This document shows, piece by piece, positions 21,199 through 64,000 of a DNA stretch of 64,000 nucleotides. The stretch is from Nitrospira sp. Its GTDB lineage: Bacteria > Nitrospirota > Nitrospiria > Nitrospirales > Nitrospiraceae. Below the pieces are notes generated by a model. That model ran no database searches and had not been told where the DNA came from. It was given only the letters and a program-made list of their open reading frames with translations. Where the stretch lies: NCBI GenBank assembly GCA_030123605.1, contig CP126123.1:310001-374000 (forward strand), read 5' to 3'. Each line of letters starts with the position of its first letter. The first letter of the stretch is position 1. Position numbers and translations under genes: made by a program.

Positions 21199-22260
21199 AT
21201 GCGATTGACAATGGGCCGGCGGGGCGCCACCATACCATCGATGAAACTCGTCTCCAATCCACCCAATCGGTTTGAATCTGCACGTCGTGAGCGGCTCGAA
21301 CCGCCGCCGCCTGTGGCGATTCAGCTCTTCGAAGACGACACCCAACAGATCCTGAGCCGAAACGAGAGCCCCGACCTTCCGTTTCGCTGGAGTGTGAATC
21401 CCTATCGAGGGTGTTTCCATGCCTGCGCCTATTGTTACGCCAGGCCGTCGCACGAATATTGGGGATTCGGCGCCGGCACCGATTTCGAATCGAAAATCGT
21501 TGTCAAGCGACGGGCTGCGTCTCTTTTGCGACAAGCCTTCGGCAAGCCGTCCTGGAACGGTGAGCTGATCGTTTTTTCGGGCAATACCGATTGTTATCAG
21601 CCCATCGAGGCGACGCTCGGTCTGATGCGCGCCTGTCTCGAGGTCTGCGCCGAGCACCGAAACCCTGTCGGCATCATTACGAAGGGGGCACTGTTGGTTC
21701 GCGACCTGGATCTTTTCCAACAACTGCATGAGGAAGCCTGGATTCGCGTCTACTTCAGCATCGCCTTTGCCGATGACGAGATGGCGCGAGTGGTGGAGCC
21801 GCAGGCTCCCAGCATCACCAAACGCTTTGAGGCCATGCGCCTCCTGTCCGAGGCCGGTATTCCCACCGGGATTTCCGTCGCGCCGATCATTCCCGGCTTG
21901 AACGAGGACATGATGCCGGAACTGTTGTCGCGCGCCAAGACAGCCGGAGCGATGACCGCCGCTTGGAGCCTGCTCCGTTTGCTGGGCCATGTGGAGACGG
22001 TGTTTCTGGAGCGGATGCGCGCGGCATTTCCCGATCGTAGCTCGAAAATCATTCACCGCATTCAAGAGGTGCGCGGGGGGGCCCTGACTGACAACGCCTT
22101 CTTCAGTCGGCATCGTGGCGACGGGACCTATTGGCGTTGCATCGAGCAGTTGTTTGAATTGGGACGGCGACGAGCCGGCTTTGTCCCTGACGACAATCCG
22201 ATTCCGCAGACCTTCCGCCGTCCTCAGGCTCAACAATCCTTGTTCTCACCGGAGGAGTAG
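21199..22260 (+). CDS. PA0069-family radical SAM protein
   Basis: The 353-residue protein has a radical SAM 4Fe-4S motif with the C-x3-C-x2-C spacing in GCFHACAYCYARPSHEYWGF (Cys 72, 76, 79), preceded by SVNPYRGC. The family-specific GNTDCYQPIE and GIITKGALLVRDLDL segments follow. It belongs to the PA0069/spore-photoproduct-lyase-like group; the substrate is unknown, though DNA-related roles are often assumed. GGTGAGGAG precedes the ATG. A rhodanese gene follows almost immediately, suggesting an operon. The N-terminal start could be the Met at codon 15. Confidence 0.88.
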   Translation: MRLTMGRRGATIPSMKLVSNPPNRFESARRERLEPPPPVAIQLFEDDTQQILSRNESPDLPFRWSVNPYRGCFHACAYCYARPSHEYWGFGAGTDFESKIVVKRRAASLLRQAFGKPSWNGELIVFSGNTDCYQPIEATLGLMRACLEVCAEHRNPVGIITKGALLVRDLDLFQQLHEEAWIRVYFSIAFADDEMARVVEPQAPSITKRFEAMRLLSEAGIPTGISVAPIIPGLNEDMMPELLSRAKTAGAMTAAWSLLRLLGHVETVFLERMRAAFPDRSSKIIHRIQEVRGGALTDNAFFSRHRGDGTYWRCIEQLFELGRRRAGFVPDDNPIPQTFRRPQAQQSLFSPEE

Positions 22261-48190: not shown

Positions 48191-49258
48191 CTACGCCTCG
48201 AGTCCTTCGCCGGCGCAGGTCTGCATCATCACGTCACGAACCTGCTGCGGAGAAAACCGCGCGGCAGCGGCATGGACCTGTTGGTACCAGTTCAAGACCG
48301 GTTCATCGTCATTGGCCACGGCTTGCTCATAGACGAAACGACACAGCGCCAAGAACGGGGCATAGTCACGAGACAGCCATGAGGCGGCCAAGTCCGGCAA
48401 CGGCCCGTCCTTGATATTGCCCCAAGACCAGGCGCGTGGGAACCCGTATTGCAGCGGCGAGACCAAGCCGCTGGTTTCCACGACCAAGGGAGCGACGACG
48501 TCTGCAACGGTTTGGTCGTCGCACAACGCGGCCTCTCGCACGAAGACACGGGTGGGATGTTCGAGCAGCGCCGGAACCGTGGCGAGATCGACCTGCACAT
48601 CCATGATGCCTTGGTACAACTCGCGAATCTTCACGGCTTCGAACAGGGCCGCCGCATGTTCCTCCCCATCGGGCAACGACTCGTTCAACGTGCGCGTGGC
48701 TCTGCCGACCGGTTCGAGCGGATGAAGCTGCAGCAATGAAGCGCCTTGCTCGACCGCGAATCGGGCGACCCATTCCAGCTCGTGCGCGTTATGAAAGGTG
48801 AGGGTGAAGATAAAGCCGAACGGAATGCGGGACGAACGTAACCCTTCCAACCGTGAGCACATGTCGTCGAATGCGCGTGGGGAGTCCCGCATGAAGGCAT
48901 GTGACTCCGGTACTCCGTCGAGGCTGATTGCGACGAGGTCGCAATCAGCCGCTAAGACGTCCAACTGGCGTCGATCGAGCAACATGCCGTTCGTCGTGAC
49001 GGTGGTGGCCAGTCCTGCGGCGTGCGAGATGTGAAGTAATTCTCCCAGCGCAGGGTACAACAGCGGCTCTCCGCCCGACACAGACAAGACCCGGTACCCG
49101 ATCGTCGCCGCATCGGCCACGACCCCACGCAGCACCGCGATATCCAACTGTTCGCTCACCGCCGGGCCGGAGTCGGAATAGCAATGCAGGCATTGCAGGT
49201 TGCAACGCCTGCCGGGGTGCACTTGTAACGTGGGGTATTGTCCGGCCGGTCCCTGCAT
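48191..49258 (-). CDS. Radical SAM protein next to a small conserved-looking protein
   Basis: The 355-residue protein starts MQGPAGQYPTLQVHPGRRCNLQCLHCYSD, giving the 4Fe-4S motif C19-x3-C23-x2-C26. VLSVSGGEPLLYP (GGE motif) and ISLDGVPESH follow. The C-terminal third has a few Cys (ALCDDQ, LALCRF, QTCAGEG) but not a clean SPASM pattern. This family modifies peptides, proteins or cofactors. It starts only eight bases after the stop of a 91-residue gene upstream, so the two are one operon and a peptide-enzyme pair is plausible. Substrate unproven. Confidence 0.85.
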   Translation of the reverse strand: MQGPAGQYPTLQVHPGRRCNLQCLHCYSDSGPAVSEQLDIAVLRGVVADAATIGYRVLSVSGGEPLLYPALGELLHISHAAGLATTVTTNGMLLDRRQLDVLAADCDLVAISLDGVPESHAFMRDSPRAFDDMCSRLEGLRSSRIPFGFIFTLTFHNAHELEWVARFAVEQGASLLQLHPLEPVGRATRTLNESLPDGEEHAAALFEAVKIRELYQGIMDVQVDLATVPALLEHPTRVFVREAALCDDQTVADVVAPLVVETSGLVSPLQYGFPRAWSWGNIKDGPLPDLAASWLSRDYAPFLALCRFVYEQAVANDDEPVLNWYQQVHAAAARFSPQQVRDVMMQTCAGEGLEA

Positions 49259-52837: not shown

Positions 52838-53860
52838 TCACGTGACATCCAACGGGCTCCGTACCCCTTTCGGGCCGTGGGCGAGCACGTGCGTGTAGAT
52901 CATCGTGGTCTGCAGGTCTTTGTGGCCGAGCAGCTCTTGCACCGTCCGAATGTCGTACCCCGCTTCAAGGAGATGGGTCGCGAAGCTGTGCCGGAGCGTG
53001 TGGCAACTGGCCGGCTTGGTCAGCCCGGCGGCGCGCACCGCTTCCTTCATCGCCCGTTGTAACACTTTCTCATCGAGATGATGCCGGCGTACCTTGCCTG
53101 ACCGAGGGTCGATCGAGCGCTGCTTCGCCGGGAACACATACTGCCAGCCCCACTCGGTCTCCGCATGCGGATATTTCCGTTCGAGCGCAAAGGGTAGATA
53201 CACCTCCCCATAGCCGTCCCGCAGGTCCTGCTGATGGAGGGCCTGCGCATACTCCAATTGCCGCTGGAGCGGCGCCATCACGGCCTGGGGCAACAGGGTC
53301 GCGCGATCGTGACCGCCCTTTCCTTCCCGCACGAGTAGCTGTCGTCTCGGAATATCAATGTCTTTCACACGCAACCGCACACATTCCATGAGGCGGAGCC
53401 CCGAACCGTAGAGCAGGTCCGCCATCACGCGAGGCGTGCCTTGAAGATGAGACAGCACCGCACGGACTTCTTCCCGCGACAGCACCAGCGGGAGCCGTTC
53501 CCGGTTCTGTGCCCGCTCCACGCCCTCGATCTGGCCGAGATCTTTTTTCAAGACCGCCCGGAAGAGAAACAAGATCGCGCTGAAGGCCTGGTTTTGCGTG
53601 GAGGCGCTCACGTGGCGGTCGCGGGCCAAGTGTGTGAGAAATTCCCGCACCTCTGTTTCGCCCAGCGCGCCAGGATGGCGCTTGTGGTAACCGACGAACT
53701 GGCGCACCCATTGGAGATAGGAATGCTCGGTCCGGAGACTGTAATGCTTGACGCGGATGGCGTCGCGCACCTGGTCGAAGAGGGTATCGGAGGGCCTGGC
53801 CTCATGAGGTGTATAATTCGCGGCCACCGATTTTGCTGACGGCGACGAAGTGATTGACAT
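52838..53860 (-). CDS. intI: Integron integrase (IntI-type tyrosine recombinase)
   Basis: The 340-residue tyrosine recombinase begins with a SAM-like N-terminal domain ([30 protein letters not shown]). The catalytic core has the Arg of [17 protein letters not shown], the [15 protein letters not shown] His/Arg block, [16 protein letters not shown] with His and the Tyr nucleophile, and the IntI-specific inserted helix region [21 protein letters not shown] followed by SGKVRRHHL. That insert distinguishes integron integrases from XerC/D. It points away from the cassettes, the usual integron layout, and captures or shuffles cassettes at attI and attC sites. No lesion is visible. Confidence 0.95.
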
Positions 53861-54880: not shown

Positions 54881-55872
54881 GGGTCATTGCTTGATTTTGC
54901 ACTTCACCCTCGCTACGCTCAGCCGCCATGGCTCGCCAGCTTCGCTTGGAGTTTGAAGGCGCCCTGTACCATGTCACCGCTCGCGGCAATGCGCGCCAGC
55001 CGATCTTTCAGGATGACGCCGATCGCCAGCGGTTTCTGGACTTGCTCGGCCAGGAGACCCGTCAGCAAGGATGGCGCTGTTACGCCTATTGCTTGATGGA
55101 CAATCACTACCATCTGCTCGTGGAAACCCCGGAGGCGAACCTCAGTCGGGGGATGCGCCGCCTGAACGCCAGCTACACCCAACGCTTTAATCGTCGGTAC
55201 GGGCGAGTCGGGCACGTGCTGCAAGGACGGTTTAAGAGTATTCTCGTCGAGAAGGAGAGTTATCTGTTGGAGCTCTGTCGGTATCTCGTGTTAAATCCGG
55301 TCCGTGCCGCCGTGGTGGAGACGGCGGCAGACTGGCGATGGAGTAGCTATCGGGCCACCGCGGGTGACGAACCGACGCCGACCTGGCTCGACGTGGCCGG
55401 TGTCCTCACCTTGTTTGATCCGAGCCCGACTGCGGCCCAGCGTGCCTACCGGCGGTTTGTGCACGCCGCGATCGGACACGCGTCGCCGTGGGCACAGGTG
55501 AGAGGCCAAATCTTCTTGGGACGTGCGGCCTTTCTGACGCGCATGGAAGCGCTGATCCAAGGACAGCGGGTGGGCAACGTGCCTGCCGCGCAAACCCGGC
55601 CGACGCGCCTGCGGGCTGAAGAGGTGGTGGCACGCGTGGCGGCGGTCTGTGGACTCACCGTGCGGGCGCTCCTGACCCGCGGCCACGCAGAAGCCTATTG
55701 TTCCGCGGCGTGGCTGTTACGCCGAGCGGCCAACGAGCCGCTTGCCCGCGTCGCGAAACGATTCGGTGTTTCACCGTCGCGCATTTCGAAGATTCAGCGT
55801 GCGGCCGAGTGTACGGTCCCCAGCTCGCAGCGCAGGCAAGCGATGCAGCAGTGTCAAGTCAAGCAATGACCC
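54881..55872 (+). mobile_element. RAYT transposase unit within the cassette array
   Basis: A perfect 14-base inverted repeat, GGGTCATTGCTTGA (54881-54894) and its complement (55859-55872), bounds the REP-associated transposase gene. Just outside its right end, TGACCCTGTAGTTCAA occurs twice in tandem. This marks the unit as an insertion into or between cassettes. Confidence 0.7.
54928..55869 (+). CDS. REP-associated tyrosine (Y1) transposase, RAYT
   Basis: The 313-residue protein starts MARQLRLEFEGALYHVTARGNARQPIF. The HUH motif YCLMDNHYHLLVETPEANLSRGMRRLN and the Y1 nucleophile region NPVRAAVV are present. A C-terminal HTH domain (WLLRRAANEPLARVAKRFGVSPSRISKIQ) resembles DnaA-type DNA binding in larger RAYTs. 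These enzymes act on palindromic REP sequences and are not self-amplifying in the usual way. The start codon lies 34 bases inside the left inverted repeat. Confidence 0.85.
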   Translation: MARQLRLEFEGALYHVTARGNARQPIFQDDADRQRFLDLLGQETRQQGWRCYAYCLMDNHYHLLVETPEANLSRGMRRLNASYTQRFNRRYGRVGHVLQGRFKSILVEKESYLLELCRYLVLNPVRAAVVETAADWRWSSYRATAGDEPTPTWLDVAGVLTLFDPSPTAAQRAYRRFVHAAIGHASPWAQVRGQIFLGRAAFLTRMEALIQGQRVGNVPAAQTRPTRLRAEEVVARVAAVCGLTVRALLTRGHAEAYCSAAWLLRRAANEPLARVAKRFGVSPSRISKIQRAAECTVPSSQRRQAMQQCQVKQ

Positions 55873-58218: not shown

Positions 58219-58571
58219 CGGGTCAGTTCTATGACGTTGGGCTACTAGCAGGCCGTTGACAAATCTTTCGAGTGCCCGTGACCGCCGGCATCACGAAGGG
58301 GCATGGACGATCACACAACTCCATGCAGGATGGTCAAAAGGGTCGTCCAGCAGGACCGCAGCGAGGTGCGCGACGCGAGGAAGAACGAGCGTCATATTCG
58401 CGCACGCCGGCGAGACGGTGAGCCGGCAGTGTCTGCGAAGGGTGGCCGACCGTTCCTTCCCTCCAGCTCTTGCATCTCAATCTTCCCCCCCCGTACAATG
58501 TCGAGACTCCAAGCTAACTCCTTGGCATTCTGACAGTTTCAGAGTGCCGGACCGATACGGGAGCCTCCTTC
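58219..58571. other. Intergenic stretch before the radical SAM pair
   Basis: About 350 bases with no supported gene. It includes a segment (near 58315-58430, aggatggtcaaaagggtcg) with the look of a dispersed non-coding repeat, a run of eight C near 58487-58494, and the probable promoter region of the downstream radical SAM gene. No promoter motif could be fixed. Confidence 0.45.
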
Positions 58572-60470
58572 ATGCGCATCGAGTATACGAAGGGTGAACG
58601 GGCCTCCAAGGAGCTGATCCTCCTCCATAGACAGGCCTCCGAAGCCACCAGCGGCCGGAAGATGAAGGTCATGCTGATCTTCCCGCCCGATTGGTTCCCT
58701 TCCGAACCCTATTTGAGCCTCCCGTCCCTCACCGCAGTCCTCCGCCAAGCCGGCCATACGGTCTCTCAAAAAGACATCAACCTCGAGATGTGGGATTGGT
58801 ACTTCAGCGAGGATTTTTTGAAGAAGGTTCTGCGCAAGGTACCGCAGCAGCTCGATCGGTTGCGAAAGCTTGCGAACAAACGTGGCTTGGAGGAATGGGA
58901 GCAAGATCTGCAACTCCAGCTCTGCGACCTGACGCGCCAGCGGATCGACGAACTGATCAAGAAGGCGGAGAAGGCGAAGGCGATCGTTCGTGGAGAAATT
59001 TTTTACGAAATCGACCAGTTAGAATGGGCTATTCATGTGTTCCGCGAGGTCACGTCGGTGATCTCGATGGTCTATGCGCCGGCCCGGATCTGCATGCCGC
59101 CGATGGAGACGGATTTGTCTTATAAGGTCTTCGTGTCGCACGACGTGATGGATGCGGTGAACGACACCCAGGTGAATATCTATCGCGACGTGTTCGAGCA
59201 TCTGGTGAAGCCCGCGATCGAGAAGGAACAGCCGGACGTGATCGGTATTTCGATCGTCCTGCAGCAGCAGATCTTTTCGTCGATGACCTTCTGTGCCCTC
59301 ATCAAGCAGCATTTCCCCCATATCCATGTGACGATCGGCGGCAATACGGTGACCCGCCTGCGCGATGTGCTGCCGGGCTCGCCGCTGTTTCGATACTTCG
59401 ACAGCGCCGTGGTCTATGAAGGGGAGACGGCCTTCGTGCAACTGGTGTCGGCGGTGGGGGCGAAGCGGAGCTTGGCCGATGTGCCCAACACCATCTACAA
59501 GGATGAGGCGGGCGTGCATACGTCGCCGACGAGTTATGCGGAGGATATGGCTCTGTTGCCGCCGCCGGATTTTGACGGTCTGCCGTTGGAGAAGTATTTC
59601 GTGCCGACGAAAATCCTGCCCTATCTCGCGACGCGCGGATGCTACTGGGGCCGCTGCGAATTCTGCGACCATGGCGAGGGTTACACGGCGGGTTACCGGT
59701 CGAAGAAGATCCAGGACGTTCTGGGCGAGATCCAGTATTTGCGCGATAAGTATGGCGCCAAGCATTTCCACTTTACCGACGAGTCCTATCCGCCGGCATT
59801 GTTCAGAAAGCTGGCGCGCGGTCTCGTCGAAAGCAAGATGGACATCGTCTGGACGACGCATATGCGGTTCGAGAAGAGCTTGCTGGAAGATGCCGTCTGG
59901 CAAGATGCGAAGGACTCGGGCTGCCGCTACCTCCACTTTGGGTACGAGTCGGGGAATGAGCGGGTGCTCAAACTGATGGACAAGGCGACCACCACCGAGA
60001 TCATGACGAAGCACCTCAAGCTCACGGCAGAAGCCGGCATCTGGAACCACTGCATGGGCTTCTTCGGGTTTCCCGGGGAGACGAGGGAAGAAGCCTGGTC
60101 GTCGGTGGAATTTTTGGAACAGAACAAAGACCATGTACATTCGCTGGGGTTCGGTACGTTCGATCTCGGCCGGCACAATCCGGTCGCGAAGCATCCGGAG
60201 AAGTGGGGCGTGACCGCCTATAAAAACCCCGAGTGGGATCTGGCACTCGATTACTATTACACAGTGAAGAGCGGCATGAGCATCGAAGAGGCCGAACGGG
60301 TATTTCAGGAATTCGAGCGGAACCATCACCCCGGCTGGGATCTGCGGTTGTTCATCCGCGAATATATCTTTCTCTACATCGTGCGGTTCGGGCTCAAGAA
60401 ACTGCCGGATCTGCAATTCCAGGCGGCGCGGATCGCGACGGAGCCGCCTTCGCTTGCGGGAAAAATGTAA
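58572..60470 (+). CDS. B12-binding radical SAM protein A
   Basis: The 632-residue protein has an N-terminal cobalamin-binding-like domain: MKVMLIFPPDWFPSEPYLSLPSLTAVLRQAGHTV, then PDVIGISIVLQQQIFSS and HIHVTIGGNTVTRL. A long helical insert lies at about 80-150. The radical SAM core is LPYLATRGCYWGRCEFCDHGEG with C357, C361 and C364, followed by HFHFTDESYPPALFRK and WNHCMGFFGFPGETREEAW. The next gene is a paralogue in the same operon (TAATG overlap at 60468-60472). Substrate unknown; family members methylate or rearrange carbon skeletons. An internal start at 58662 is possible. Confidence 0.9.
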   Translation: MRIEYTKGERASKELILLHRQASEATSGRKMKVMLIFPPDWFPSEPYLSLPSLTAVLRQAGHTVSQKDINLEMWDWYFSEDFLKKVLRKVPQQLDRLRKLANKRGLEEWEQDLQLQLCDLTRQRIDELIKKAEKAKAIVRGEIFYEIDQLEWAIHVFREVTSVISMVYAPARICMPPMETDLSYKVFVSHDVMDAVNDTQVNIYRDVFEHLVKPAIEKEQPDVIGISIVLQQQIFSSMTFCALIKQHFPHIHVTIGGNTVTRLRDVLPGSPLFRYFDSAVVYEGETAFVQLVSAVGAKRSLADVPNTIYKDEAGVHTSPTSYAEDMALLPPPDFDGLPLEKYFVPTKILPYLATRGCYWGRCEFCDHGEGYTAGYRSKKIQDVLGEIQYLRDKYGAKHFHFTDESYPPALFRKLARGLVESKMDIVWTTHMRFEKSLLEDAVWQDAKDSGCRYLHFGYESGNERVLKLMDKATTTEIMTKHLKLTAEAGIWNHCMGFFGFPGETREEAWSSVEFLEQNKDHVHSLGFGTFDLGRHNPVAKHPEKWGVTAYKNPEWDLALDYYYTVKSGMSIEEAERVFQEFERNHHPGWDLRLFIREYIFLYIVRFGLKKLPDLQFQAARIATEPPSLAGKM

Positions 60471-62437
60471 TGTCTGCGTCAGGTCTTGTCCAAATCGACG
60501 GTCTGAGTCCGATCAAGAAAGAGGATCGGAAGACTTCGAAGGTCATGCTACTGTTCCCGCCCGAATGGGTGCCGACCGCGCCTTATCTTGCCTTGCCCTC
60601 GTTGACCGCCGTGTTGCGGGAAGCCGGGCACAGCGTCGTTCAGCGCGACATCAACATCGAGATGTACGACCACTTCTTCACCATGGAGTTTTTGATCTGG
60701 GTGAAGGCTCGCTTGGGCATGCAGCTGAAGCCGCTCCAGGATAAGGAAAAGGCGGGAACGCTGACGGAGCAGGAAGCCAGTCAGAAAGCGGTGCTGGAGG
60801 AGGCCTATGCGGTGGATGTGTTCGACCTCGCGGACCGTGCGGAAGACGCCAAGCTGGTCGTACGCGGCCAACGGTTCTACGACGCGGAGAAGTTGGAGCG
60901 GGCGCTGAACACTTTCCGTGAAGCGATGCAGTACATCTCCGCCGCCTACTATCCGGCTTCGCTGGTGTTCTATCCGATGGAAAGCAACTTAGGGTATCGC
61001 CCAGGGGTCTCGAAAGAGGTCTTTGCTTGTCTCGACGACGAACAGGTGAACGTGTACCGCGACATCTGCAATCAGCTCGTGTTGCCCAGCGTAAGCAAAG
61101 AGAAGCCGACGGTGATCGGCATCTCGATCGGCACGCAGATGCAACTGATGGCCGGCCTCACGTTCTGCAAGATGATCAAGGAAAGTTTTCCGGACATCCA
61201 CGTCGTGGTCGGCGGTAATGTCGTGACGCGGTTGCAGGAAGAATGGGCGAAGCATGAGCGGTTCTTCGCCGAGGTGTTCGACGCGGCCATCTTGTACGAG
61301 GGGGAGCACGCGCTGCTCTGGTACATCGAAGCGGTGAACGGCCAGCGGGCGATCGGGTCGGTGCCGAATCTCATGTATTACGAGTCCGGCGTGGTGCAGC
61401 AGAGCAAGGAAGTCTATACGGAGAAGACGGCGGCGCTGCCGCTGCCGGACTTCGACGGCTTGCCGCTGGATCACTATTTCGTTCCGGAGCGGATCATTCC
61501 CTATCTCGCGACGCGCGGGTGCTACTGGGGTCGGTGCACATTTTGCGACCATGGGCAGGGCTATTTCGATCAGTATCGCGGGATGACGGCGCAGCATGTG
61601 GTTGAACAGGTCACGGCGTTGCGTGACAAATACCGGTGCACACACTTTCTCTTCTCCGATGAATCCTATCCGCCCGCGCTGTTCAAGAAAGTGTCGCAGC
61701 TGCTCGTGGATCGGAATGTCGGCATCAAGTGGACGACGCTGATTCGTTTCGAGGAGACCTTGCAGGATCAAGCGGTCTGGAACTTGGCGGCGAAGGCCGG
61801 ATGTTGTACGCTCTATTACGGCATGGAGTCGGCGAACGAGCGCGTGTTGAATCTCATGGACAAACACGCGAAGAAAAGCGTAATTCAGAACAATCTCCAC
61901 CAGGCGGCGAAGGCGGGCATTTGGAACCATGTGATGGCGTTTTATGGTTTTCCCGGCGAGACCCGCGAGGAGGCGCTGGAGACGCGGCAGTTCGTCATCG
62001 AGAACCAGCCGGTAATTCACTCCGTGGAGCTGTTCTACTTCGTGGCCTACCGTCACACGCCGATGGTGCGCAACCCGGATAAATTCGGCATCACGATCCA
62101 CAAGCAGGAGGAGTACGACCTGCCGCTGGATTACTATTACACCCTGAACGAGCCGGTGGGCATTTCGTGCCTGGATGCGATGCAGATGTGCGAAGAATTC
62201 TATAAAAACGACTTTCAGCCCTGGGCGGTGCGTGTGAACAGCCGCGAACATGTCTTTCTCTACATTTCCAAGTTCGGCACGAACAAGCTGCCGCAGATCT
62301 ATGCCGCGACCAAGGATGGCGCGACTGCGGCGGAAGGGGTGTCCGGTCTCGTGACCTGGCCCATGGCCATCGGCGAGGGGAGCGGCGAGAAAGACGGGGA
62401 GCCTTCCATGTCTCGTGTGGTGTCACACGGGGTCTGA
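60470..62437 (+). CDS. B12-binding radical SAM protein B
   Basis: The 655-residue paralogue of protein A starts MSASGLVQIDGLSPIKKEDR, with its ATG overlapping the previous TAA. SKVMLLFPPEWVPTAPYLALPSLTAVLREAGHSV and PTVIGISIGTQMQLMAGLTFCK form the B12-like domain; the cluster motif is RGCYWGRCTFCDHGQGYFD (C351, C355, C358), with HFLFSDESYPPALFKK and WNHVMAFYGFPGETREEAL. The C-terminal 40 residues are an added tail. Together with A it suggests a two-enzyme modification pathway or heteromer. Confidence 0.9.
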   Translation: MSASGLVQIDGLSPIKKEDRKTSKVMLLFPPEWVPTAPYLALPSLTAVLREAGHSVVQRDINIEMYDHFFTMEFLIWVKARLGMQLKPLQDKEKAGTLTEQEASQKAVLEEAYAVDVFDLADRAEDAKLVVRGQRFYDAEKLERALNTFREAMQYISAAYYPASLVFYPMESNLGYRPGVSKEVFACLDDEQVNVYRDICNQLVLPSVSKEKPTVIGISIGTQMQLMAGLTFCKMIKESFPDIHVVVGGNVVTRLQEEWAKHERFFAEVFDAAILYEGEHALLWYIEAVNGQRAIGSVPNLMYYESGVVQQSKEVYTEKTAALPLPDFDGLPLDHYFVPERIIPYLATRGCYWGRCTFCDHGQGYFDQYRGMTAQHVVEQVTALRDKYRCTHFLFSDESYPPALFKKVSQLLVDRNVGIKWTTLIRFEETLQDQAVWNLAAKAGCCTLYYGMESANERVLNLMDKHAKKSVIQNNLHQAAKAGIWNHVMAFYGFPGETREEALETRQFVIENQPVIHSVELFYFVAYRHTPMVRNPDKFGITIHKQEEYDLPLDYYYTLNEPVGISCLDAMQMCEEFYKNDFQPWAVRVNSREHVFLYISKFGTNKLPQIYAATKDGATAAEGVSGLVTWPMAIGEGSGEKDGEPSMSRVVSHGV

Positions 62438-62515
62438 TAGCCGATCGAAGAGCCTCTGGCTCTGGCGGATAGCCGATGGTCCGCGCGCAATATATCGACC
62501 CTATGCGATACACGA

Positions 62516-62755
62516 TCAGCTCTTCATCTCGATATATCCCCGCAGCAGGTGATAAGCCCGCTCAATCTCCTTGGTCATCGCTTCGCCCTGTTTCACCAGC
62601 TGCATGTATTTGCGAGGGTTGTTGGCATGATTCGCGTAGCGATGGGGATTCCACGTGTGGAGCAGCTGTGTGCGTGTCTGATCCAACTGCTCGCGGGTAC
62701 AGGGCAGCGTGAGTCGGAACAGATGCAGCGCGTTGGCGAGCGGATCGTCGATCAT
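62516..62755 (-). CDS. Small J-domain-like protein
   Basis: The 79-residue protein has the helix pattern of a DnaJ J-domain: LFRLTLPCTREQLDQTRTQLLHTWNPHRYANHANNPRKYMQLVKQGEAMTKEIERAYHLLRGY. The HPD tripeptide is absent (WNPHRY in its place), so it probably cannot stimulate DnaK in the usual way. It lies convergent with protein B and divergent from the third radical SAM gene. A role as a partner or regulator is inference. Confidence 0.6.
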   Translation of the reverse strand: MIDDPLANALHLFRLTLPCTREQLDQTRTQLLHTWNPHRYANHANNPRKYMQLVKQGEAMTKEIERAYHLLRGYIEMKS

Positions 62756-62834
62756 GCTGCGAAGTCTTGCAAGCGGATGCCGATGTTGTCAATGGAGTAG
62801 GCGTCGCCCTTGAGGTGGCAGATCGGTCGGTACC

Positions 62835-64000
62835 ATGTCGACGACACTCCCAATTTTTCAACCGGTCCCGCTGTTCAGAGATCGCACCGATTATCGACAG
62901 GTGCTGATCCGCGAAATGGATGCCGGCAAGATTCCCTTGAGCCTCGGCCGTGATTGTCCGGTCAAGTGCGAATTTTGCTATGAACTGGACCACTCCTACC
63001 GGGAAACGCTTGATCCGCCGAAGACCAGCGACGAGGATTGGACATTCATCCTCGACTACATCAAAAAGAAGCCCACCGACCCGACGCAGTTCTGGTGCCT
63101 CGGCGGCAACGAGTTCATGGAATGGACCGATCTCTTCCTGCACCCCAAGGCGATGGAATGGGTGGAGGACTTTCTCCGTGAGACGGATAAGAACATCCAG
63201 TTCTTCACCGTGGGGTTCGTGCATGTGCCCAAGATTCATCAATTGACCGCGCAATACCCCGGCCGCATCAACTTCGAATTGTCGGTCATTACGCTCAGCG
63301 ACTACCGTCAACGGCTGATGCCGCATGCGCCTTCGGTGAAACACCTCATGAAGGTCCTGGACGGCCCCGCCGTCTCGTCGGCCAACTTCTACGCCTTCGA
63401 TGCCCACACGATGTCCAAGGATGCGGCGACCATCTCGGCCGTCAACCAGAAGTGCGTACTCTGGATGGGAACGCTCACGCCGGTGCGGGGTCTCAAGGAG
63501 GAGACGGCGGCGGTCATGCGGCAGGGCCGGAAATTTTTGCCGGAGGAAGCGAGACGGATCTACGATCTGGGGCTGCCGAATCTGCAGACCATCCACACGG
63601 AAGCCTACACCACTGCCTTCTTGAGCCGCCGCCGCATCGTCAGCCTGTTCGATTCGCTCGAACTCGACAAGAAAGACACGGTCGTCATGGCGGGGAGCGT
63701 CTACAAAATCTTGACCATGTTTCGGAAAAACCGTGCGCGTTTTTTGTATGTGCCCAATGCGTTGCTCAGCGGAGACTCCGACTGCACGGTGCTCCTGACC
63801 TTCGACGACATTTCGCGGCGTGTGACCAACGAGAAGGTCCTCCACATCCCGAAATGCATCATGCAATCAGGACGTGGACCCTATACCGACATCACCGGGG
63901 TCACCCTGGAACAGTTCACCAAGAAGACCGGCGTGCGGGTGAAGGTGTTGCACAAGATCGATACCCGATTCGCAAACCAGCAATTGTATCGCAACGGCTC
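62835..64000 (+). CDS. Third radical SAM protein (truncated by the window)
   Basis: An open frame starts at ATG 62835 (MSTTLPIFQPVPLFRDRTDY) and runs past the end of the window. The 4Fe-4S motif is SLGRDCPVKCEFCYELDHS (C41, C45, C48), with FWCLGGNEFMEW and INFELSVITLSDYRQRLMPH following. At least 388 residues are visible. No B12 domain is seen at the N-terminus, unlike the two genes before it. It is divergent from the J-domain-like gene, and its start lies about 400 bases after protein B. Substrate unknown. Confidence 0.85.
   Translation, partial: MSTTLPIFQPVPLFRDRTDYRQVLIREMDAGKIPLSLGRDCPVKCEFCYELDHSYRETLDPPKTSDEDWTFILDYIKKKPTDPTQFWCLGGNEFMEWTDLFLHPKAMEWVEDFLRETDKNIQFFTVGFVHVPKIHQLTAQYPGRINFELSVITLSDYRQRLMPHAPSVKHLMKVLDGPAVSSANFYAFDAHTMSKDAATISAVNQKCVLWMGTLTPVRGLKEETAAVMRQGRKFLPEEARRIYDLGLPNLQTIHTEAYTTAFLSRRRIVSLFDSLELDKKDTVVMAGSVYKILTMFRKNRARFLYVPNALLSGDSDCTVLLTFDDISRRVTNEKVLHIPKCIMQSGRGPYTDITGVTLEQFTKKTGVRVKVLHKIDTRFANQQLYRNG

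Follow-up and report, generated by a model that had tools for sequence, protein, structure and literature searches.

A Conserved Nitrospirales Locus Encoding Two Paralogous, Predicted Cobalamin-dependent Radical SAM Enzymes and a Probable Third of the DUF512 Type

Introduction

Class-1 cobalamin-dependent radical SAM enzymes, such as TsrM, OxsB, TokK, CysS, and MgmA, carry an N-terminal B12-binding domain followed by a radical SAM domain. In OxsB, Asn186 is located under the cobalt, in the loop after strand 3 (PMC13331322). Class-2 enzymes (DUF512 or Mmp10 type) have the radical SAM domain first, followed by a DUF512-like domain in which a lower-face leucine is conserved. DUF512 is a cobalamin-binding domain of radical SAM enzymes, and the leucine below the cobalt corresponds to L366 in a C. 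sporogenes DUF512 protein (PMC11659888). The class-2 enzyme Mmp10 and the class-1 enzyme MgmA both methylate a protein (PMC8828468, PMC11796369).

Here we analyze a gene cluster at the right-hand end of a 64,000-nucleotide stretch of a Nitrospira genome (the window; GenBank contig CP126123.1, positions 310,001 to 374,000). Few nitrite oxidizers are as widespread as Nitrospira. The open-access papers searched on radical SAM enzymes in Nitrospira contain no description of this cluster. An earlier note, made from the DNA letters and their open reading frames, had reported three radical SAM genes at positions 58572-64000, two of them B12-binding paralogs that overlap by TAATG, with a J-like gene before the third, and had proposed a stepwise or heteromeric modification pathway for which no substrate gene was visible.

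Results

The open reading frames bear out three radical SAM genes in this segment, which we term A, B, and C (Table 1). A and B both score above the Pfam cut-offs for the radical SAM domain (PF04055; 60.2 and 56.7 bits, respectively, versus 29.5) and for the N-terminal B12-binding domain (PF02310; 38.6 and 35.9 bits versus 32.1), and C contains a CX3CX2C motif. A and B are similar along their whole length (46% identity and 65% similarity over 606 amino acids in BLASTP), and TAATG is indeed shared by the end of A and the start of B. C is cut by the window edge at position 64000, and reading the genome past the window supplied its last 76 nucleotides. Gene J is found on the minus strand, so that it is read toward B and away from C. 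The source genome is a single 4.32-Mb contig in which the radical SAM domain is matched 32 times; two more of these matches are located inside the window (21394-21930, plus strand; 48755-49216, minus strand).

Table 1. Positions of the genes and motifs described in this study. Numbers refer to the window unless a locus is named.
Feature	Position	Strand	Basis
Gene A, B12-binding/radical SAM protein, 632 aa	58572-60470	+	ORF listing and translation; Pfam; orthologs across Nitrospirales
Gene A cluster motif	C357-X4-C362-X2-C365		
Gene B, paralog of A, 655 aa	60470-62437	+	ORF listing and translation; Pfam; BLASTP
Gene B cluster motif	C351-X4-C356-X2-C359		
Gene J, conserved small protein, 79 aa, J-domain-like at most	62516-62755	-	
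Gene C, radical SAM and C-terminal DUF512-like (predicted cobalamin-binding) domain, 413 aa	62835-64076	+	
Promoter-like pair TTGCAT - 18 nt - TACAAT upstream of A	58470-58475 and 58494-58499	+	alignment
Gene D, third B12-binding/radical SAM paralog of the same genome	L157:9600-11381		
Gene D cluster	L157:4123-19159 (genome C1, about 4104122-4119158)		

The domain order of A and B is that of the class-1 enzymes, from which they differ in their low sequence identity (12-18%), in having CX4CX2C in place of CX3CX2C, and in being encoded as tandem, paired paralogs. The CX4CX2C motif, as read from the sequences, is invariant among the full-length A and B proteins compared, all of which also keep the B12 domain. 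A structure model of B, calculated from an alignment of 38 sequences, reached a mean pLDDT of 77.8 and a pTM of 0.82. A Foldseek search of the Protein Data Bank with this model returned TsrM as the best match (E = 8e-13), followed by OxsB, MgmA, and CysS (E up to 2.6e-10). In the B12 domain of the B model, a mostly helical stretch connects strand 2 (residues 55-60) to strand 3 (residues 215-219); its length far exceeds that seen in plain B12 domains, which again sets A and B apart from the described class-1 enzymes. By their domains and fold we assign A and B to class 1, and we predict that both bind B12.

The best NCBI families for A and B are rSAM_ocin_1 (TIGR03975) and PhpK (TIGR04479), with E values of 1e-31 to 1e-41. 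We rejected membership in either family: A and B reach 133 and 110 bits with the former, which comprises RiPP radical SAM C-methyltransferases (cut-off 281.85), and 121.8 and 140 bits with the latter (cut-off 600). A precursor gene such as is found near rSAM_ocin_1 genes is also missing: apart from J, no conserved open reading frame is present near the cluster among the frames of at least 40 amino acids compared.

We next assessed how widely the genes occur, using B to search 296 Nitrospirota genomes at E = 1e-60. Matches were found in 100 genomes, 99 of them from the order Nitrospirales, and 93 of these 99 carry A/B; the remaining six have neither A nor B, only a further paralog, D (G018, G216, G261, G267, G279, and G285). 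In a genome scan, the best 80 of 228 confirmed matches were all labeled Nitrospira, Nitrospirae, or similar (one as Nitrosospira, a mislabel). A and B are adjacent in the 73 loci with both genes, spaced by -17 to 905 nucleotides, and apparent singles are located at contig ends or at a run of N in the assembly. The TAATG overlap recurs in only 5 of 73 relatives, and we dropped TAATG coupling as a defining trait because it is not conserved. Nitrospirales families f1 and f2 share the arrangement A-B-J(antisense)-C; in family f3, A-B and C are found on separate contigs. Gene-neighborhood comparison, the check proposed in the earlier note, thus finds a cluster that is conserved, with A and B together rather than singly, the opposite of what the note had named as refuting its proposal.

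A and B form separate clades in a phylogenetic tree, each containing all three families, which places their duplication before the origin of the order. Comparison of 72 A with 74 B sequences revealed 175 alignment columns fixed alike and 57 fixed differently. The latter include V229/G221, L230/T222, and Q232/M224 (A/B), which map to the loop after strand 3 when aligned with OxsB. These fixed differences argue for distinct functions over redundancy. They also fit a heteromeric enzyme, in which one of the two subunits would be catalytic and the other would aid binding or electron delivery: A and B strictly co-occur and adjoin, are alike in length throughout, and differ consistently around the cofactor region. 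However, as both retain the iron-sulfur cysteines and the B12 domain in all full-length sequences compared, neither looks like a dead subunit, and we regard a single heteromer as unlikely. Conservation, co-occurrence, and fixed differences are those expected for two non-redundant steps or subunits; they uphold this much of the earlier proposal and do not separate its stepwise from its heteromeric form.

A role in lipid methylation was also considered. Nitrospira moscoviensis, in which the unusual mid-chain methylated 11-methyl-hexadecanoic acid was first found (PMC5516240), carries A, B, and C, which might methylate the chain that becomes this fatty acid, and A and B show distant profile similarity to the B12 radical SAM families HpnJ, HpnR, and rSAM_ladder, which act on lipids. 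The profiles of peptide and phosphinate methylases match A and B better, however, no conserved lipid genes are located beside the cluster, and the two Nitrospira species studied differ in their lipids (PMC5516240), whereas A-B is found order-wide. We consider a lipid substrate of this kind very unlikely.

C belongs to a different type. Its motif reads CPVKCEFC, CX3CX2C is present in 34 of 34 orthologs compared, and the protein carries a GGNE stretch; its match to PF04055 is weak and below the Pfam cut-off (E = 0.005). DUF512 (PF04459) was matched by 16 of 19 C orthologs below cut-off, one ortholog exceeded it (25.3 versus 25 bits) in a genome search with PF04459 whose matches included the C genes themselves, and the C protein of the window gave no match at E values up to 1. 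Profile comparison of C with canonical DUF512 proteins by hhalign yielded a probability of 97.3 (E = 2e-11) over residues 39-373 and places a DUF512-like domain C-terminal to the radical SAM domain, the arrangement seen in Mmp10. L366 of the C. sporogenes protein is part of a GLLTG-type stretch and aligns with L320 of C, which is invariant in 22 orthologs. C differs from bacterial DUF512 proteins in lacking a PDZ domain, in its very divergent sequence, and in its adjacent class-1 genes. The structure model of C is poor (pLDDT 53.5, C-terminal domain included), and we discarded the matches from a fold search with it as meaningless. As judged from the profile and motif evidence, C is probably a divergent class-2 enzyme and cobalamin-dependent as well. 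All three enzymes would then probably require B12, with two unrelated types of B12 domain encoded side by side; the earlier count of two B12-binding proteins holds for A and B and is probably one too low for the cluster.

C was found in 58 Nitrospirales genomes (E = 1e-20). When we checked 76 Nitrospirales genomes for AmoA, all 31 amoA-bearing (comammox) genomes were without C. Among the 45 amoA-negative genomes, 36 contain C and 9 do not; in the A+B tree, six of these nine are nested within the comammox clade, and they may represent comammox drafts without the amo contig. The source genome carries no amoA. The association comprises two phylogenetically independent contrasts only (sign test, p = 0.5), and thus represents a pattern rather than statistical proof. 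Published phylogenomics assigns comammox clades A and B to different GTDB genera, in which nitrite oxidizers are found as well (PMC12342949). A tree of D and its NxrC-like neighbor agrees, grouping each comammox clade with the nitrite oxidizers of its genus; one common comammox clade is rejected (AU test, p = 8e-84), whereas the A+B tree unites both comammox groups with a support of 100 and rejects a single clade for genus g2 (AU test, p = 0.004). From this conflict, the C-less A-B-J locus has probably been exchanged between comammox lineages. One amoA-positive, C-less genome (G165) has a different A/B.

The presence or absence of C independently of A-B raises the question of whether it is a neighbor with an unrelated job, A and B alone forming the functional unit. 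C is divergent from J, has an upstream region to itself, and belongs to a syntenic block that runs on into genes that are possibly unrelated. Where present, however, C adjoins A-B in all but one of the loci compared (G283, a contig break or move), and it would be strange for two unrelated B12/radical SAM types to stay adjacent across an order by chance. We rate an unrelated C as rather unlikely.

Paralog D is 34% identical to B and shares with A and B the domain plan, the N-terminal PYLSLPSLT motif, and CX4CX2C. In contrast to A and B, it is a single gene, is located in a nitrite-oxidoreductase-like cluster, and is retained where A, B, and C are missing. The cluster encodes, in order, WD40, zincin-like, NapG-like, type-II DMSO-reductase chaperone-like, and NxrC-like proteins, D, a membrane protein, an NHL protein, a second NxrC-like protein, and two multiheme cytochromes, and gene order is identical in the 10 Nitrospirales genomes examined. 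Two nxrA-like genes are located ∼22 and ∼47 kb from D. This context suggests a respiratory-enzyme connection for the subfamily, and A and B might by extension help to mature a nitrite-oxidoreductase-type respiratory enzyme by modifying a residue or cofactor. On the circular map, however, ∼0.6 Mb separate the A-B-C cluster from D, genes of this kind are missing from its surroundings, and the six genomes without A/B keep D, together with its cluster in the five looked at. Taken together, we find respiratory maturation by A and B improbable.

J is present in 39 of the 41 loci first compared and is retained where C is lost. A small gene does occupy the interval between B and C, as first noted, but its reading as J-like stands up less well. 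PF00226 (DnaJ) was matched by three of seven members (E = 0.012-0.046) with 16.1 bits at best, compared with a cut-off of 27.8, and not by the J protein of the window, and we rejected the assignment. The HPD motif is intact in 1 of 39 J proteins and replaced in 38 (HPH, NPH, NPA, NPT, and the like). With no conserved precursor gene to the right of C, the cluster is still without a substrate gene, as the earlier note had it, unless J is one.

To the right of C we find PhzF-, MogA-, ferredoxin-, and GGCT-like genes. Gene content to the left of A differs between relatives, and translations inspected by eye place a phage-type integrase-like gene (52838-53860, minus strand) and a REP-associated transposase-like gene (54928-55869, plus strand) in this non-conserved region. 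An apparently dispersed repeat containing CGTACCCCAGAGGGTACGCCTCCGG is located just before A in eight loci (L039, L056, L057, L208, L217, L219, L220, and L229). Some members of family f2 (L050, L051, L052, L061, and L063) carry a metH-like gene (B12-dependent methionine synthase, identified by eye) a few kilobases upstream of A. In an alignment of 15 relatives, the columns of the TTGCAT-TACAAT pair are nearly invariant and are followed by a conserved leader and then A; the pair was missed by a simple consensus scan, and a promoter at this position is thus an inference only. No cobalamin riboswitch or other Rfam RNA was found near the cluster in five loci.

Discussion

Our analysis is best explained by a stepwise, dedicated B12/radical SAM modification pathway of Nitrospirales, to which we assign an about even chance of being correct. 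A and B would be two anciently duplicated, non-redundant class-1 enzymes, each most likely forming methylcobalamin and a 5'-deoxyadenosyl radical. By analogy with the established chemistry of these families, one SAM molecule would methylate cob(I)alamin in each enzyme, a second would be cleaved to the 5'-deoxyadenosyl radical, and the methyl group would be moved to an unactivated atom. A single substrate would receive two linked methylations, or related alkylations, from A and B acting together. C would contribute an additional step that can be separated from these, one that nitrite oxidizers have kept and that is missing from comammox lineages.

The Pfam matches, the fold likeness, order-wide synteny, joint presence or absence of A and B, and their fixed differences support such a pathway, from which we infer B12 binding, methylation, and a shared role for A, B, and C. 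Several findings count against it. C can disappear from genomes that retain A-B, and it may thus belong to another process; C has no DUF512 match of its own in the source genome, and its model is poor; and the PhzF-like and other right-hand genes are equally syntenic and have no known link to the cluster. The methylation reading is further weakened by class-1 enzymes that are not methylases, such as OxsB, BchE, and ThnL (PMC13331322).

A protein substrate is slightly favored, given that Mmp10 and MgmA modify a protein and that the cluster encodes J, which is small and conserved; this analogy is speculative, and we would place its likelihood somewhat short of even. Lipid or small-molecule substrates are also possible. 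J could, speculatively, be a partner in protein modification. The most elaborate version, in which a single protein is modified in turn by three B12 radical SAM enzymes with two unrelated domain plans, with J as partner or substrate and the third step marking canonical nitrite oxidizers and being absent from comammox, seems to us quite unlikely as a whole.

Three additional probable B12 enzymes, conserved across the order, point to another B12-dependent trait in Nitrospira. The absence of C from comammox provides a natural comparison for finding the product of C, which is itself a candidate for approaching the function of DUF512 enzymes. In the sampled Nitrospirales we found no canonical DUF512 protein, only the divergent C; in other Nitrospirota, canonical DUF512 radical SAM proteins are common.
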